Shown piece by piece: positions 402-52,853 of a stretch of DNA of 64,000 bases. Source of the stretch: Elusimicrobiota bacterium (lineage in GTDB: Bacteria; Elusimicrobiota; UBA8919); NCBI GenBank assembly GCA_028718185.1, contig JAQUMH010000001.1, positions 219,186 to 283,185 on the forward strand. The letters are read 5' to 3'. Each line of letters starts with the position of its first letter. Position 1 is the first letter of the stretch. The position numbers and the translations under genes were made by a program. The notes under the pieces are model-generated. The model did no database searches and was not told the origin of the DNA. It worked only from the letters and a program-made list of their open reading frames with translations.

Positions 402-3068
402 TTATTCTATCTTAACTGATAATATCTTAGATTTTCCTATAACCTTATTTTCTTTATTAACAAAGAGCAGAATATAATAGTAATTATCGGGTTGTAATGG
501 AATAACTCCAGTCGGTGTCCTTGTCCCTATGTCTAAATAATTATGTAAAATGGTGCTTGTTTTAACAATATTTTGTTGATGTTGCCTAAACATGTGAAGG
601 AATCGCATTAATTTAATATATACATTATTGCCCCTTAATAGTATAATACTACTAACATCGGGAAGATCATTCTTAGACCATTTTAAATTAACATTCTCTT
701 TAATTATCTCATATTCAAAATTAACATCTATTTCTTCTACTTGAGACATATCCTGACTAAGCACATCACTAATCTTGAAACTAAAATCTCTCACACCTGT
801 CGATGAAGTTCCCGGCTTTGCAATTGCTAGAATAAAATTATCTTCACTAAAGGCAAGAATAATATTTCCTGTTTGTACATCTATTATTTTGATATTAAGA
901 TTCGCAGATAATTTATTTTTTTCTAATGTCCGTGAAGAGATGGTTCCTGTAACAAAAGCATCAACTGATAATAAATTACCCATCTTTTTAGTATTTTCTT
1001 TATCAGTTAATCCTGACAAATTAAAAGATTGTTCTTTTAATATTTTTTCAACATAGATACTATCTACTACTTCCAATATCTCACAATCAATTATTTCTGT
1101 AGATAACTGCTTTGATAAGTTTGTGCCAAAGTTAGATTTGCTGACATCTAGATCTGTAAAATTTAGAACAGCAATTTTGTAAATATTTTTCTTTATAAGG
1201 TCTTTACTTATTTTTTTAGCTAATTTTTCAAGTTGTTGCAATATTAGTGGATTAATATAACTTTTTTTTGATTTATCATGAAATTCTTTCATTTTATAAG
1301 CCATTTTGCGGCTGTTGTAGGCTTCGGTATATTTTGGATATATTTGAATTGCTTTAGTATAATCTTCTATTGCCTTATTATATAATCTTTTCTTAATATA
1401 TGCACTCGCACGGTTGTAATAAGCCTTTGCATGTTTTGGATTTATTTGTATTGCTTTTGTATAATCTTCTATTGCCTTATCATATTCACCCTTAGCATCA
1501 TAAGCAAGCCCACGATTGCTGTAGGCTTCTGCATATTTTGAGTTTATCTGTAGTGCTTTTGTAAAGTCTTCTATTGCCTCATCATATAATCTTTTAATAC
1601 CATAAACATTTCCGCGGTTGTTGTAGGCTTCTGCATGTTTTGGGTTTATCTGTACTACTTTTGTATAGTCTTCTATTGCCTTATCATATAATTCTTTCCT
1701 GATATATACACCTGCACGGTTGTTGTATGCAGCACCTTTTTCTTTAGTTACACACTGACCCGTGGGATCAAATTCTATTGCTTTATTGTAATCCTCGACT
1801 GCCGGGTCATATTCGCCTTTTTCATAATAAGCAATCCCACGGTTGTAATATGCACCTGCATATTCCGGGTCATATTCGATTGCTTTAGTATAATCTTCTA
1901 TTGCCTTTTCATATAATCCCTTCTTGTCATAAACAAGCCCGCGGTTGTTGTAAACAGCACCTTTTTGTTTGAGCCCGCATTGACCCGTGGGATCAAGTTC
2001 TATTGCTTTATTGTAATCCTCTATCGCTCGGTCATATTCACCTTTATTGACATAAGTATATGCACGGCTGTTGTAGTTATCTGCATATTTTGGGTTTATC
2101 TGTATTGCTTTTGTATAATCTTTTATTGCCTCATCATACAATCCTTTCTTATCATAAGCAAGCCCACGGCTATAGTAGGCTCCTACAAATTTTGAATTTA
2201 TTTTTATTGCTTTATTACAATCTTCTATTGCCTTATCATATTCACCCTTAGCACCATAAGCAATCCCACGGTTGTTGTAAGCAGCACCTTTTTCTTTGAG
2301 CCCGCATTGACCCGTGGAGTCAAGTTCTATTGCTTTATTATAGTCCTCTATTGCCCGGTCATATTCACATTTTTTATTATAAACATATCCACGCATATGA
2401 TATACTTTTGCACTTTTTGGGTTTATTTCTAATATCTTTATGTAATCCTCTATTGCTTTATCATATAATCCTTTACTACAATAAACATCTCCACGTGCAT
2501 TATATGCTTCTTCATATTTTGGGTTTAATTCTATCGCTTTTGTATAATCTTCTATCGCCTTTTCATCTTCTCCGTTATAACTATACGCAATCCCGCGAAA
2601 AAAATATGAACTTGCATCTTTTGAGTTTAGTTCGATTGCTTTACTATGGTCTTCTATTGCCTTATCAAATAATCCTTTATTAAAATAAGAAATTCCGCGG
2701 TTGTTGTAGGCTTCTGTAAATTTTGAGTTTATTTGTACTGCTTTTGTATAATCTTCTATTGCCTTATCATATAATCCTTTCATTCCATAAGCAGTTCCGC
2801 GAATATAATATGACTTCGCATCTTTCAAGTTTAGTTTTATATTTTTCGTATAATCTTTTATTACTTTGTCATATTCTTTCAAGGCAAGATTTGTTATGTA
2901 TTTTTCGTGAAACTCTTCTATATCTTTTGGGTTTAATCCTATCGCTTTGTCAAAATCTCCTATTGTTCTAGCATTTTCGCTTTTTCCATCATAAGCAATT
3001 CCCCGGATGATAGATGGTAGTGTTATAAATATTAAAAACAAAACACATCTCGTTTTGTTTTTTCCCAT
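402..3068 (-). CDS. Exported TPR-array protein with CsgG-like and Fn3-like C-terminus
   Basis: The product is about 888 residues. A hydrophobic leader (MGKNKTRCVLFLIFITLPS) is followed by about 15 tetratricopeptide repeats of the form AYNNRG..Y..KG.YDKAIEDYTKAIQINPKYA. Next comes a CsgG/FlgO-like alpha/beta domain beginning KIAVLNFTDLDVS, and then a beta-rich tail resembling an Fn3 domain. TPRs bind proteins, and CsgG-like domains occur in envelope lipoproteins and secretion channels, so a periplasmic scaffold role is inferred; the substrate is unknown. Three repeats carry a 12-residue insert starting TGQC. The frame is open back to a TTG at 3128, but ATGs at 3104 and 3068 are likelier; 3068 puts the signal peptide at the N-terminus. 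An extended -10 promoter lies just upstream. Confidence 0.8.
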   Translation of the reverse strand: MGKNKTRCVLFLIFITLPSIIRGIAYDGKSENARTIGDFDKAIGLNPKDIEEFHEKYITNLALKEYDKVIKDYTKNIKLNLKDAKSYYIRGTAYGMKGLYDKAIEDYTKAVQINSKFTEAYNNRGISYFNKGLFDKAIEDHSKAIELNSKDASSYFFRGIAYSYNGEDEKAIEDYTKAIELNPKYEEAYNARGDVYCSKGLYDKAIEDYIKILEINPKSAKVYHMRGYVYNKKCEYDRAIEDYNKAIELDSTGQCGLKEKGAAYNNRGIAYGAKGEYDKAIEDCNKAIKINSKFVGAYYSRGLAYDKKGLYDEAIKDYTKAIQINPKYADNYNSRAYTYVNKGEYDRAIEDYNKAIELDPTGQCGLKQKGAVYNNRGLVYDKKGLYEKAIEDYTKAIEYDPEYAGAYYNRGIAYYEKGEYDPAVEDYNKAIEFDPTGQCVTKEKGAAYNNRAGVYIRKELYDKAIEDYTKVVQINPKHAEAYNNRGNVYGIKRLYDEAIEDFTKALQINSKYAEAYSNRGLAYDAKGEYDKAIEDYTKAIQINPKHAKAYYNRASAYIKKRLYNKAIEDYTKAIQIYPKYTEAYNSRKMAYKMKEFHDKSKKSYINPLILQQLEKLAKKISKDLIKKNIYKIAVLNFTDLDVSKSNFGTNLSKQLSTEIIDCEILEVVDSIYVEKILKEQSFNLSGLTDKENTKKMGNLLSVDAFVTGTISSRTLEKNKLSANLNIKIIDVQTGNIILAFSEDNFILAIAKPGTSSTGVRDFSFKISDVLSQDMSQVEEIDVNFEYEIIKENVNLKWSKNDLPDVSSIILLRGNNVYIKLMRFLHMFRQHQQNIVKTSTILHNYLDIGTRTPTGVIPLQPDNYYYILLFVNKENKVIGKSKILSVKIE

Positions 3069-3150
3069 ATATATATAGTGTTGATTTCTGTTGGAATATG
3101 GCATAATCGGACAAATTTCAAAATGCAAGCTTTATTTTACTTTAAGTTTA

Positions 3151-16329: not shown

Positions 16330-17658
16330 CTACTTTTCAATTTTTTTTAATTGCTCAATGTTCTTTTGAGATTCTTCACCAGTACTGATAAGAATACGTG
16401 ATGTAATATAAATGAGAACTTGATTGGTAATTTTAGTTTTTGTTTTCTTAGAGAATAGATACTTAATCAAAGGAATGCTTTTTAATACAGGAACACCTTT
16501 TATTGAATCCACTAAAGTTGTTTTTTCAATACCACCCATCACATAAGTTTGACCATTCTTTATGTCTATCGTACTTGCCGCTTGACGTGATGAAACCATT
16601 GGCTGTCCTTGCGGACTCCAACCTATCAAATCACTTATTTGTGCATTTATATTTAAATTAATTAAGTCATCAGATTTTACAAGTGGCGTTACATTTAAAG
16701 TTAGTCCGATTCTATTTGAATTTTCATATGAACTGTTCTGTTGCATATACATTATTGAATCACCAGTGTATATGGTTGCCGACTTATTGTTCAAAGTAAT
16801 AATTTTCGGTGAGGAAAGTATCTTTGCGTTACCATCATTGACCAACATGTTAACAAAATCTCCTAAATTTGCATTCCTAAGATATACACTTGTATTAAAG
16901 TTATTGTTATTTTGTTTATTTTTAGAAACGTTATCCCAAGTATGGTTATTACTGGTATTTGGTGTATAATTACTAGTATCTGTTTGAGAAGTGCCATAGT
17001 TAATTTTGCTGTTAGAATAACTTAAATTACCTTCTAATATTCCTGTTAGAGCATTCCAATCAAGCCCAACTTTACTTATATAATCCTGGCTGATTTCAAT
17101 TATCTTTGCCTCAATGACTATCTGTGGTACAGGAGTATCTAATTTGGCAATCAGGTTTCTGATGAAATCAATTTTACTTCCCACATCAGTGATTACCAGG
17201 GTATTATGATCACTATCTACCAGTATACTGCCATCTGGTGATAACTGTGACTGGACCAGAGGTTTAATCATGAATGCTTGTGTATATTTTAAAGAAATTG
17301 ATTCTGTTTTTAAACGAAGAAATTCTTTTAATCCATTTATATCCAATTCTTGAACAAGTTTTGATAAGTCATTAACTTTTGGTTGTTTATCTGTAATTAT
17401 AATCATATTTAAAGCATCGTTTACTTGAACCGTCCCATAACGGGAAAGACGACCCTTGATGAACATCTCAATTTCTGATGCTTTGATATTTTTCAAGGTT
17501 ACAATTTTACTTACTGTATCTATACCCGCATCATCCTGAATATCTACATCAAACTTTATACGTCCTTGAGAAGTCGGCTCTGCACTATAAGAATTCACTC
17601 CCAGTAAAAAGATCACCCCAGCAAACAACATTACTTTTATACTAGTCTTGTAATTCAT
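16330..17658 (-). CDS. Orphan secretin (GspD/PilQ family)
   Basis: A 442-residue outer-membrane secretin with a signal peptide (MNYKTSIKVMLFAGVIFLLG). Two N-type domains follow (VKNIKASEIEMFIK-like and VDSDHNTLVITDVGSKIDFI), then an Asn/Ser/Thr-rich loop at about residues 215-255. The C-terminal secretin domain holds KILSSPKIITLNN, VMGGIEKTTLVDSIKGVPVLKSIPLIKYLF and the closing IYITSRIL. It would form the gated channel of a type II secretion or type IV pilus machine. No other machine genes adjoin it; the nearest is a GspE/PilB-like ATPase at 50.7 kb. The start is preceded by a run of ten G residues serving as its ribosome binding site. Confidence 0.88.
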   Translation of the reverse strand: MNYKTSIKVMLFAGVIFLLGVNSYSAEPTSQGRIKFDVDIQDDAGIDTVSKIVTLKNIKASEIEMFIKGRLSRYGTVQVNDALNMIIITDKQPKVNDLSKLVQELDINGLKEFLRLKTESISLKYTQAFMIKPLVQSQLSPDGSILVDSDHNTLVITDVGSKIDFIRNLIAKLDTPVPQIVIEAKIIEISQDYISKVGLDWNALTGILEGNLSYSNSKINYGTSQTDTSNYTPNTSNNHTWDNVSKNKQNNNNFNTSVYLRNANLGDFVNMLVNDGNAKILSSPKIITLNNKSATIYTGDSIMYMQQNSSYENSNRIGLTLNVTPLVKSDDLINLNINAQISDLIGWSPQGQPMVSSRQAASTIDIKNGQTYVMGGIEKTTLVDSIKGVPVLKSIPLIKYLFSKKTKTKITNQVLIYITSRILISTGEESQKNIEQLKKIEK

Positions 17659-47310: not shown

Positions 47311-47682
47311 TTAATCTCTAAGTATATGACTTATTTTTTCTCTCACTTTTTCCAGGTCAAATGGTTTGACAATATATCCAACAGCGCCAAGGCTAAGTCC
47401 TTTATCTATATCGCCAAGTGAACCTTCAGCAGTGCAAATAAGCTTTGGAATTTGGCTTGTTTTTTCATTTGACTGCAACATACTGCACAACTCAAAACCA
47501 TTCATACGCGGCATTATCACATCAATAATGATTAAATCCGGTGTTTTACCGCGTAATGCTACTTCCAGTGCATCTACACCGTTAAGAGCATAAGAAACTT
47601 CGTAGCCGGCGTCTTCTAAGCTTGCTTTTAATAACTCGACAATAGCCATATCATCTTCTGCTATCAATATTCTTTTTTTCAT
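47311..47682 (-). CDS. Stand-alone CheY-like response regulator
   Basis: A 123-residue single receiver domain: acidic pocket EDD (residues 8-10), phospho-acceptor Asp in DLIIIDVIMPRMNG (about 54), a CTA switch residue and the VKPF lysine. With no output domain it must act through protein contact. No histidine kinase adjoins it. The Hpt protein at 50.3 kb and the receiver fused to the GspE/PilB ATPase at 50.7 kb are candidate partners by proximity only. Confidence 0.92.
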   Translation of the reverse strand: MKKRILIAEDDMAIVELLKASLEDAGYEVSYALNGVDALEVALRGKTPDLIIIDVIMPRMNGFELCSMLQSNEKTSQIPKLICTAEGSLGDIDKGLSLGAVGYIVKPFDLEKVREKISHILRD

Positions 47683-50114: not shown

Positions 50115-50300
50115 AATTAAGCAAAGCTTTGCTTTGCAGCTACAAAACAGCTGATGTTGTAGCCGCAGAGCGTTAGCTCTGCTAAACATTGAAATTCCTA
50201 TACATTAAGATAGATTGCTTCGTCGTCCCGATATATCGGGACTCCTCGCAATGACTAAAGAGAATGCGGTCATTGCGAACGAAAGGTGAAACAATCTCAT
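50115..50300. repeat. Composite repeat island between DUF401 and Hpt genes
   Basis: GCAAAGC-TTT-GCTTTGC (50121-50137) followed by AGCTACAAAA, GCAGAG/CTCTGC (50165-50182), CATTGAAATTCCTATACATT, TCCCGAT-AT-ATCGGGA, and a GTCATTGCGAACGAAAG-type REP piece. It shares its parts with 20575-20700 and 53930-54115. No gene is seen in 50066-50342. Confidence 0.75.
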
Positions 50301-50342
50301 GAATTTTAAAATTTCCGTATAATCAATTAATATGTCAATTTA

Positions 50343-50687
50343 TTATTTTGAATTATTACCGTTATTGCTGATTTTTATTTCAAGATTACTTACAAAATCT
50401 GAAAGTTCACATATATATTTTTTCATATCTTCGTAATTATTGTTTTTAGCACCGGCTTCGAGTTCTCTCCCAATGTGTGATATTTCATCTAAGCTGTATA
50501 AACTTCCTGTTCCTTTAATTTTATGCGATATTTTCCTGATAGTTTCCAAATCATTTTTCAATAATGCATTTTCCATAACTATTATGTCTTTTTTTCTTCT
50601 TTCAATATAAACAGGAATTATTTCTGCAATTTCAGGACGTACATAAACAATGTTCTTTTCAGTTTTGTCTGTTTTATTCTGTTCCAT
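50343..50687 (-). CDS. Histidine phosphotransfer (Hpt) domain protein
   Basis: A 114-residue four-helix Hpt domain with the phospho-accepting His55 in RKISHKIKGTGSLYSLDEISHIGRELE. Hpt proteins pass phosphate between receiver domains of phosphorelays. It begins 9 bp after the stop of the GspE/PilB-receiver fusion, so it is almost surely cotranscribed with it and could phosphorylate or dephosphorylate that receiver. No kinase is adjacent. Confidence 0.9.
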   Translation of the reverse strand: MEQNKTDKTEKNIVYVRPEIAEIIPVYIERRKKDIIVMENALLKNDLETIRKISHKIKGTGSLYSLDEISHIGRELEAGAKNNNYEDMKKYICELSDFVSNLEIKISNNGNNSK

Positions 50688-50696
50688 ATATTTATA

Positions 50697-52853
50697 TCAA
50701 TCAACCCTGCGAAAAGCAGCATTAACCTTGGCTATAAACAAATCCGGGTTAAACGGTTTAATAATATAATCATCCGCACCCAGATTTATCACATTTTCCT
50801 GGCTTTCTTCATCGGATAAAGCAGTAAGCACAATTATCGGAAGTTTAATCAAACCTAAACCCGAACGAATTCTCTGAATAACTCCAAAACCGTCCAAGCG
50901 CGGCATCATTAAATCCAAAAGCAACAAATCAGGTATTTTCTGGGCAATCATATCTATTACTTCCCTTCCATCGCTGGCTTCATCTACATCGTAACCATTT
51001 TTATTAAGATATATTTTAATAATATTTCTAACATCAGTATCATCATCAGCAATCAACACTCTCTTGTTTTTATTAGAAGGGACCGGCGCAGGTTCGTGAA
51101 TTTTAGATACTGAGTATTCTTTTTTACTTGGTTTTATATCGGTCATTATGTTTAGATAAGGAAAAATTTCATCCAAAGAAGTATCGCCCTGTGATAAATG
51201 CCATAAAGCATCATAATTCATCGGCCATAGAAAACCCTTTTTCATAGCAGTTTCATGGATGTTATATTCTTTTTCTCCTGCACTTATAAGATTCTTTATT
51301 TCCCGGGTAACTTCAAGGAGCTCTAAAATAGCCAGACGACCTTTATAGCCGCTAAAATCACATTTTACACAACCTACAGGCTTAAAACATTTTGTTGATA
51401 AATTATTTTTTTTTAGCATCCCTTCAATAAAAACAGAATCGGTTTTTGTTAATGTAGCCGGTTCCTTACAATCAGGGCAAAGTCTGCGCACTAACCGCTG
51501 GGCTGTAATAGCAAGCATTGCAGGCGAAATCTTAAATCTTTCCACGCCCATATCTATTAACCTTGTAATACTTGATACAGTATCATTAGTGTGCAAGGTT
51601 GAAAATACCAGATGCCCGGTCATTGCTGTCTGGAAGGTAATATCCGCGGTTTCCCTGTCACGAATTTCTCCTACTAAAATCGTATCCGGATCCTGACGCA
51701 GAACAGACCTTAAAATAGTAGCAAAAGTTAATCCCTGTTTTTCATTTACCTGGACTTGATTGACCCCTTCCATACGATATTCAATAGGATCTTCTATGGT
51801 AATAATATTAGTATTTTCCTTCTTAATCATATTTAACATTGAATACAAAGATGTCGTCTTACCTGAACCGGTAGGTCCCGTTATAAGTATTATGCCTTGT
51901 TCTGCATTAAGTATATCTCTCAATCTATTTGCTATGTCTTGTTTAAAACCTAATTCTTCAAAAGGTACTCTTGCTGATTTTGGATTAAGCAAACGAAGCA
52001 CTACTGTTTCTCCATACGAAGTAGGCAATGTGGAAACCCGCAATCCGATTTCAATATTATTGACTAATAATTTTGCCCGGCCATCCTGAGGTTTAAAATG
52101 TTCCGCCAAGTTTAAATCAGCCATAATCTTTATTCTGGAAACAAGCGGACCCGTAGCTAATTTTCTGGGTATTGTCATTATATTTTTAAGAAAACCATCT
52201 ATGCGAAAACGCACAATGCTGCCGTAGTCTTCATGTTCAATATGGATATCAGATGCCCTCATTTTAACTGCTTTAGCGATAAGAGAGTTAACCAATTTTA
52301 TTACAGGGGGCATAATTTTTTCAGGAGAAGTATAGTCTTTATCAACCTGGAAATCCTGTAATACTTCAACTTCATTTTTTTCATCCATCTTTCCCAGAAG
52401 GTCATATACCATTATTTCAGGATTAAACTGTTCTGCTATTAAAGCTTCAATCTTTGAAGGAATACAATAATAAGGTTTTGGGTTTCTGCCGGTAACAACC
52501 TGAACATCATTTCTTGCAATAAAATCTAAAGGGTTAATCATAAGCACGTCTATGATTTCATCTCTTAACCGGAATGGAATCAAACCGTGCCTTCGACAAA
52601 TCTTTTCCGGGACAAAAGAAAGAGCTAATTTTTCAACAACTATTTTATCAGGATTGAAATATGGAATTTGATGAGTTTCAAATAATTCTCTCTCTAACAT
52701 TTCAATGGTAATTTTCTGGGAATCAACCAAGGATTCGGATAAAAACGCACAGCGTTTATTCCTCAGGTCTTCAATCACATCCGCAGTTATGTTAGGTAGT
52801 TTTAAAACTACTTCCAATAACCATTCATCTTTAAAAATATGCTTGGTCCCCAT
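50697..52853 (-). CDS. GspE/PilB-type secretion ATPase fused to a response-regulator receiver
   Basis: A 718-residue protein. Residues about 1-165 form a MshEN-like N-terminal domain, residues about 170-560 the type II secretion/type IV pilus assembly ATPase (Walker A GPTGSGKTTSLYS, His/Asp boxes, RQDPDTILVGEIRDRETADI, and a zinc tetracysteine CPDC...CVKC), and residues about 600-718 a complete receiver (ADDDTDVRN, LLLDLMMPRLDG, VLTA, IIKPF). The receiver should let phosphorylation control the motor, and an Hpt gene follows 9 bp later. The c-di-GMP-binding motif of the N-domain looks degenerate. No pilin, GspF or GspG lies nearby; a secretin is at 16.3 kb. Confidence 0.93.
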   Translation of the reverse strand: MGTKHIFKDEWLLEVVLKLPNITADVIEDLRNKRCAFLSESLVDSQKITIEMLERELFETHQIPYFNPDKIVVEKLALSFVPEKICRRHGLIPFRLRDEIIDVLMINPLDFIARNDVQVVTGRNPKPYYCIPSKIEALIAEQFNPEIMVYDLLGKMDEKNEVEVLQDFQVDKDYTSPEKIMPPVIKLVNSLIAKAVKMRASDIHIEHEDYGSIVRFRIDGFLKNIMTIPRKLATGPLVSRIKIMADLNLAEHFKPQDGRAKLLVNNIEIGLRVSTLPTSYGETVVLRLLNPKSARVPFEELGFKQDIANRLRDILNAEQGIILITGPTGSGKTTSLYSMLNMIKKENTNIITIEDPIEYRMEGVNQVQVNEKQGLTFATILRSVLRQDPDTILVGEIRDRETADITFQTAMTGHLVFSTLHTNDTVSSITRLIDMGVERFKISPAMLAITAQRLVRRLCPDCKEPATLTKTDSVFIEGMLKKNNLSTKCFKPVGCVKCDFSGYKGRLAILELLEVTREIKNLISAGEKEYNIHETAMKKGFLWPMNYDALWHLSQGDTSLDEIFPYLNIMTDIKPSKKEYSVSKIHEPAPVPSNKNKRVLIADDDTDVRNIIKIYLNKNGYDVDEASDGREVIDMIAQKIPDLLLLDLMMPRLDGFGVIQRIRSGLGLIKLPIIVLTALSDEESQENVINLGADDYIIKPFNPDLFIAKVNAAFRRVD

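Follow-up and report, generated by a model that had tools for sequence, protein, structure and literature searches.

Control of a pilus-type ATPase fused to a receiver

Extension ATPases of type IV pili are thought to be controlled by cyclic di-GMP (c-di-GMP) or by separate partner proteins. In a 64,000-nucleotide stretch of an Elusimicrobiota genome (GenBank assembly GCA_028718185.1), referred to here in its entirety as the window, a gene for a PilB/GspE-type ATPase runs on into a receiver domain and is followed by a gene for a histidine phosphotransfer (Hpt) protein, which raises the question of what controls such a motor. The fusion, designated PilB-REC, is likely to be an accessory PilB-type assembly ATPase that also serves as the output response regulator in a His-Asp phosphorelay, the c-di-GMP input having been replaced. 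The host genome (G000) comprises 3.03 Mb in 27 contigs and is 96.7% complete. The parts of the gene pair are as follows.

50697..52853, minus strand: PilB/GspE-type ATPase with C-terminal receiver (PilB-REC), 718 amino acids (aa), a single open frame with Pfam domains
52674..52853, minus strand: residues 1-60, region of the MshEN c-di-GMP motif, degenerate as judged by motif scoring (best 6/11 positions)
52431..52673, minus strand: residues 61-141, MshEN (Pfam, 47.0 bits)
51165..52307, minus strand: residues 183-563, T2SSE core with Walker A, Asp box, Walker B, His box and four Cys (Pfam and alignment)
51060..51164, minus strand: residues 564-598, variable linker (alignment and comparison with the fusion of genome G005)
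50724..51059, minus strand: residues 599-710, receiver (Response_reg), with the Asp647 codon at 50915-50913 and Lys699 (Pfam and alignment)
50343..50687, minus strand: stand-alone Hpt protein, 114 aa, His55 codon at 50525-50523 (Pfam and structure model)

An earlier note on this DNA had described a full ATPase in frame with a complete receiver and an Hpt gene 9 bp further on, and both descriptions hold. MshEN, T2SSE and Response_reg all lie in the one 718-aa frame. The T2SSE domain scores 426.2 bits against a curated cut-off of 24.9 (PF00437), which places the protein among the PilB/GspE secretion ATPases, and the receiver (96.1 bits) carries the acid pair D603/D604, phospho-Asp D647, T677 and K699 of a response regulator. 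The Hpt gene begins 9 bp past the stop codon of the fusion gene. Its product has an Hpt domain at residues 32-99 that scores 27.5 bits, low but over the cut-off of 24.6, with a phosphorylatable His55 at the expected place; the Hpt beside the G005 fusion likewise exceeds the cut-off, at 26.7 bits. The structure model of the window Hpt (predicted local distance difference test, pLDDT, 87.8) is a helical bundle, and its top Foldseek matches in the PDB are Hpt domains with a probability of 1.00, the best E value (0.0099) being statistically weak.

Conservation and ancestry of the fusion

A profile made from six fusions was searched over 340 Elusimicrobiota genomes, and separates full-length fusions (nearly all >617 bits) from plain PilBs (at most ~593 bits). 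Following inspection of 54 loci and the window, ATPase and receiver were found in one frame at no fewer than 48 loci, the window included, in at least 42 of the 340 genomes; genomes were counted by hand, and as scoring was limited to the three top candidates of each genome, the fusion count is a lower bound. Loci with no receiver in frame (L122, L125, L126, L209 and L213) and unfused ones (L130-L133) were left out of the counts. A fusion 80% identical to that of the window is found on contig MGVS01000030.1 of Elusimicrobia bacterium RIFOXYD2_FULL_34_15. PilB-REC is also common in a second phylum, which contains a Gemmatimonadetes-titled genome (51 listed matches reach the receiver without a stop codon, in 42 of 150 genomes by hand count), and rare in a third, containing a Syntrophobacterales-titled genome (5 of 198 genomes, hand count). 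An assembly error, named in the earlier note as what might undo its reading, and chance read-through are both ruled out by the 48 loci in 42 genomes together with the second-phylum fusions.

In a tree of ATPase domains, from which very long or redundant rows were left out, the Elusimicrobiota and second-phylum fusions (44 rows, with three Elusimicrobiota outliers set aside) form one side of a branch with support of 96/94. A single group of all 53 fusions is not the best tree, yet it is not rejected (approximately unbiased test, p-AU 0.183). The fusions of L129 and L211/L212 are placed among plain PilBs, and receivers were therefore probably attached to PilB more than once, as far as this tree can tell.

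The phospho-Asp and Lys positions (D647 and K699) are conserved in all 48 aligned Elusimicrobiota fusions, and the acid pair and the Thr/Ser in 47 each. The Walker A Lys/Thr, the Asp-box Glu-Asp, the Walker B Glu and the four Cys of the zinc site are likewise present in 48/48, while the linker between ATPase and receiver is long, variable and Pro/Ala-rich. The window fusion and that of G005 are 80% identical overall; by region, the ATPases are 85% identical, the receivers 81% and the linkers 47%, with dN/dS values (NG86) of 0.10, 0.155 and 0.25, respectively. The receiver is thus under constraint, as judged by its identity of 81% and dN/dS of 0.155 against the 47% identity of the linker.

Two further groups have arrangements of their own. 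At L129 (genome G203), whose fusion lies outside the main clan, two tandem PilB-REC genes precede genes for a CheY-like receiver, then a protein resembling CheC (Pfam, 26.2 bits) and another receiver; CheC acts as a phosphatase of phosphorylated CheY. The ATPases at L130-L133 are unfused PilB-type proteins of ~506 aa without a receiver, which form a supported clade, lie inside clusters of hybrid kinases and lone receivers, and lack the c-di-GMP motif in 4/4 cases.

Loss of the c-di-GMP motif

RLGxx motifs are the elements by which MshEN binds c-di-GMP (PMC5013675). The window fusion does not have the two RLGxx copies of c-di-GMP-receptor MshEN domains, its best match covering 6/11 positions. 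With the motif counted as present at 9 or more of 11 positions, it was found in 21 of 23 plain PilBs of the Elusimicrobiota versus none of the 48 fusions of the same phylum. It was also missing from all 33 second-phylum fusions scored and from the 16 proteins of a second receiver-bearing class, REC-T2SSE-REC, described below (best 6/11). The third-phylum loci retain it in 6/7 cases, two of the seven having no receiver in frame, and plain PilBs from other groups in 10/22. On the tree, the absences perhaps amount to two or three losses and are not independent counts. The best reading of these alignments is that PilB-REC would be a second PilB, whose input has been switched from c-di-GMP to phosphorylation.

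Association with two-component genes

Kinase, receiver and Hpt genes around the fusions were labelled with local models, and part of them were checked by Pfam. Of the 48 Elusimicrobiota fusions, 26 have a two-component gene as their immediate neighbour on the same strand (three via Hpt), compared with none of the 23 plain PilBs taken from this phylum (Fisher p 2e-6, not corrected for relatedness); the figure for fusions from other phyla is 12/38. The background, taken from genes more than three places from fusions, is 24/325. The plain PilBs are mostly found in the order pilB-pilT-pilC, where PilT was recognised by T2SSE score and PilC by position and sequence.

Several operons stand out. The L084 operon encodes a sensor kinase, a receiver and PilB-REC; the L107 operon, with the fusion that the tree places closest to the window pair, encodes PilB-REC, a kinase and REC-Hpt; and L225, from another phylum, has a hybrid kinase (histidine kinase-receiver), PilB-REC and Hpt in one operon. 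Tripartite kinases of the form PAS-HisKA-HATPase-REC-Hpt lie immediately upstream of PilB-REC at L214, L215 and L219, and 377-aa HATPase_c kinases, one of them identified by Pfam, also adjoin PilB-REC in family f6. In most PilB-REC loci that have such neighbours, other two-component genes stand where the Hpt gene would.

Within the host family, the Hpt protein tracks the fusion. The window Hpt is the sole PF01627 match in the host genome (E values up to 0.001), and among the eight genomes of the family the fusion is present in two and Hpt in exactly the same two, one each and always adjoining the fusion (Fisher p 0.036, not corrected for relatedness). These two genomes represent separate genera; the second genus includes one other genome, which lacks both genes. 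The neighbourhoods of the window and G005 pairs are otherwise different, the shared gene content being the pair only, besides generic receiver matches and one antisense frame. Over 60 relatives, a Pfam Hpt was found in 4/6 genomes with the fusion and 9/54 without it (p 0.017, again uncorrected for relatedness), and G040, another of the six, has beside its fusion a diverged Hpt-like gene that Pfam does not report.

A separate observation concerns L149 (genome G163), where an ordinary pilB-pilT-pilC operon has a receiver gene directly downstream, together with an Hpt gene on the opposite strand and a hybrid kinase behind the Hpt gene.

A second clan of receiver-bearing ATPases, found through Hpt

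The window Hpt was also searched over the 340 Elusimicrobiota genomes, which gave 47 matches in 42 genomes, and the surroundings of all 47 were inspected. In 20 cases a T2SSE protein is encoded no more than 200 bp away; 19 of these pairs share a strand, and their ends mostly overlap. Chance alone would give less than one such case (assuming ~10 T2SSE genes per genome, the number over the cut-off in the host genome, and an estimated ~2700 genes). The T2SSE frame includes a receiver in 19 of these 20 cases, and the remaining frame is cut by a contig end. Three more T2SSE genes were found within 3 kb of Hpt matches, one of them PilT-type and on the opposite strand. By type, a T2SSE protein adjoins 14 of the 29 Hpt proteins that stand alone and 6 of the 10 of REC-Hpt form, but none of the five kinase-Hpt proteins; the other three matches are a 503-aa frame and two proteins, from two genomes, in which Hpt and ATPase form a single polypeptide. 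The latter have the Pfam-confirmed architecture REC-Hpt-REC-MshEN-T2SSE-REC.

L296:1164-4316, minus strand: one-chain REC-Hpt-REC-PilB-REC, 1050 aa
L305:1378-4614, minus strand: one-chain REC-Hpt-REC-PilB-REC, 1078 aa
L257, L258, L279, L280, L286-L288, L290, L292, L294, L299, L300, L302, L303, L307, L308: REC-T2SSE-REC class with an adjacent Hpt or REC-Hpt gene, mostly overlapping by a few bases

The T2SSE partners adjoining Hpt are mostly of this REC-T2SSE-REC class, although at L286 and L287 only the C-terminal receiver was detected. Start-codon overlaps occur at the Hpt genes of L299, L300, L302 and L125. In the ATPase tree, the class (16 rows) is a clan of its own with support of 100/100, apart from the PilB-REC clan (95/83). 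As judged by the tree and gene order, Hpt proteins are linked to each of two clans of PilB ATPases that bear receivers, and the fusion of Hpt and ATPase domains is the strongest genomic sign that the two would act together.

Proposed mechanism and alternatives

A phosphorelay link between the fusion and the Hpt protein is supported at the level of genomes, because the pair is conserved, Hpt and fusion co-occur, kinase, receiver and Hpt neighbours recur, and one-chain Hpt-PilB proteins exist. In the relay proposed here, a sensor kinase encoded elsewhere in the genome, where 28 HisKA kinases were found, would phosphorylate His55 of the adjoining Hpt protein through a receiver. Asp647 in the C-terminal receiver would then accept the phosphoryl group from Hpt, and the phosphorylated receiver would switch whether, or where, the hexameric ATPase acts on the type IV pilus platform. 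The usual c-di-GMP input would thereby have been replaced, the MshEN motif having decayed and the receiver being conserved. We infer from these patterns the gating of the motor by the phosphorelay, as well as the direction of phosphotransfer, the effect on the ATPase, the sharing of PilC and PilM, and pilus extension as the output.

A number of observations weigh against this proposal. No kinase gene adjoins the fusion/Hpt pair within the window, and the genome G008 carries the fusion while Pfam finds no Hpt there. No two-component gene is directly adjacent on the same strand at 22 of the 48 fusions, and none lies within three genes at 16. A separate Hpt gene directly adjoins only three (the window, L080 and L081), and an Hpt domain is found within three genes of seven; over all fusion loci, the Hpt is directly adjacent at 10/86 versus 0/23 plain PilBs, a difference that is not significant (Fisher p 0.116). 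Hpt adjacency as a general rule of the PilB-REC class is therefore rejected. Of the compact phosphorelay control unit suggested in the earlier note, the link between the two proteins is supported but not the neighbouring Hpt gene as a rule, and conservation of Hpt beside the fusion in relatives is likewise partial, being seen at L080 and L081 and in other phyla. AlphaFold models the ATPase of the whole fusion well, but most of the receiver has a pLDDT below 50, because few input sequences cover it. At L082 (genome G031), the receiver of the fusion is degraded, with D-N as its acid pair and Ile in place of Thr, and the His box of the ATPase has Glu in place of His; this fusion is perhaps a relic or a dominant-negative form. 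Beyond the scope of the earlier note are the loss of the c-di-GMP motif, the presence of several ATPases with a single PilC and a single PilM found, and the wide distribution of the architecture.

The main rival is that the receiver serves for localisation or docking, its phosphorylation bringing the ATPase to a pole or complex while the ATPase rate stays unchanged. Receivers act in localisation in FimX- or FrzS-like systems, and the long, variable Pro/Ala-rich linker would suit docking better than rigid allostery. The REC domain of FimX is described as influencing localisation, but as being without a phospho-Asp (PMC11656802), whereas this residue is kept in 48/48 fusions. Docking alone also leaves the decay of the c-di-GMP motif unexplained, and we consider this explanation unlikely.

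A phosphorylation-controlled PilB-REC could also serve a type II secretion system in place of a pilus. The NCBIfam GspE equivalog (TIGR02533) scores slightly above the PilB equivalog (TIGR02538), at 515.3 versus 510.7 bits, but both are under their cut-offs (630.25 and 675.65, respectively), as is the TfpB model NF053534 (426.5 bits, cut-off 850). The closest PDB sequence is a pilus ATPase, and none of the 60 best PDB sequence matches has a chain spanning ATPase and receiver. The host genome has 10 T2SSE genes over the cut-off, including several further PilB/GspE-type ATPases besides the fusion, but one PilC/GspF-type platform protein (a 409-aa frame with two T2SSF domains, on contig C7) and one PilM were found, together with a Tad-like pair on contig C1. 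The platform gene lies beside genes for a PilT-type ATPase, pilin-like proteins and a putative prepilin peptidase; on C7, labels other than T2SSE and T2SSF, like the label Tad-like, were read from sequence. The canonical PilB (L135) and the PilT-type gene both lie at contig ends, in the latter case that of C7, and the pilus operon was therefore probably split by assembly. A secretion system as the target is thus doubtful. By analogy with TfpB of Acinetobacter baylyi, an extra and phylogenetically distinct extension motor alongside PilB for type IV pili (PMC8213720), the fusion probably works with the single PilC/PilM machine of the host.

Less probable still is that the fusion no longer drives a filament and is a signalling protein, with the ATPase fold as a phosphorylation-dependent scaffold or sensor. 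Its gene is an orphan, with no PilT, PilC or pilin gene adjacent, unlike those of plain PilBs, and PilB of Myxococcus xanthus acts in exopolysaccharide signalling (PMC5544727). However, all tested catalytic and zinc-site residues are kept in 47 or 48 of the 48 fusions, and the dN/dS of the ATPase is 0.10. That the Hpt serves an unrelated response regulator and adjoins the fusion by chance is very improbable: adjacency is rare in the PilB-REC class, and 25 of the 47 Hpt matches have no T2SSE protein within 200 bp or in the same polypeptide, but the other 22 do, and the sole Hpt of two genomes is beside the fusion both times with no other shared neighbour.

A broader version of the phosphorelay proposal, to which we give somewhat less than an even chance, is that two or more clans of pilus-type ATPases, PilB-REC and REC-PilB-REC, left c-di-GMP control and now act as terminal response regulators in Hpt phosphorelays. 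The host's plain PilB retains most of the c-di-GMP motif, and would compete with a phospho-gated PilB for one PilC and PilM. If so, the cell would choose between second-messenger and kinase control of its pili by swapping motors.

Other features of the window

The genes neighbouring the fusion encode a pyridoxal phosphate (PLP) enzyme, Hpt, a DUF401 protein and an M23 peptidase, and no pil or gsp operon was seen among the neighbouring genes inspected, nor any platform gene beside the fusion. A further receiver gene encodes a possible member of the relay.

47311..47682, minus strand: stand-alone receiver, 123 aa, 3 kb downstream of the pair, beyond two unrelated genes
50220-50310: palindrome-like non-coding stretch between hpt and the DUF401 gene (tcccgatatatcggga), the core pattern of which occurs as a single copy in the window
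16330-17658, minus strand: secretin (Secretin at 123.9 bits, plus Secretin_N), an orphan lying 33 kb away from the fusion and without recognised pilus genes adjoining it
402-3128, minus strand: long tetratricopeptide-repeat protein with a CsgG-like stretch close to its C-terminal end

Comparison with known systems

PilB-REC shares its ATPase core and MshEN domain (PF00437 and PF05157) with MshE of Vibrio cholerae and other MshEN-type PilB/GspE proteins. Those take c-di-GMP as input through the RLG motif (PMC5013675), whereas in the window fusion the motif is lost and a receiver attached. The combination of MshEN and receiver as such is not new, because the same paper states that MshEN occurs with REC domains and names an MshEN-containing response regulator, Bd2402. 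In Synechocystis, the extension ATPase PilB1 is considered a direct target of a CheY-like response regulator, PixE (PMC7690835); PixE is, however, a separate PATAN-CheY protein released by a photoreceptor, while the receiver studied here is within the ATPase chain and has an Hpt adjoining. TfpB of A. baylyi is similarly a second extension motor besides PilB, with no receiver mentioned in the available text of PMC8213720. His-Asp signalling also controls type IV pili in the Pil-Chp system of Pseudomonas aeruginosa, but through the separate response regulators PilG and PilH, PilG acting on the adenylate cyclase CyaB (PMC11656802) and not via an ATPase domain. The available text of that review of PilB control makes no mention of a receiver in PilB, and no description of an Hpt-fed PilB-receiver fusion, a REC-Hpt-REC-PilB-REC protein or the exchange of a c-di-GMP motif for a receiver was found by searches of open-licence PMC papers.

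The relay itself resembles that of tripartite hybrid kinases of the ArcB/BvgS type, in which a kinase-receiver-Hpt relay feeds a receiver output protein; kinases of this kind are those upstream of PilB-REC at L214, L215 and L219. The usual output of such relays is a DNA-binding regulator, and here it would be a pilus-type ATPase. If this is true, the motor is the response regulator, and the signal passes from sensor to motor without transcription or a diffusible messenger. In the REC-Hpt-REC-PilB-REC proteins a single chain holds nearly all the relay parts that follow the kinase, which makes the effect of phosphorylation on the PilB hexamer directly testable using a single purified protein.

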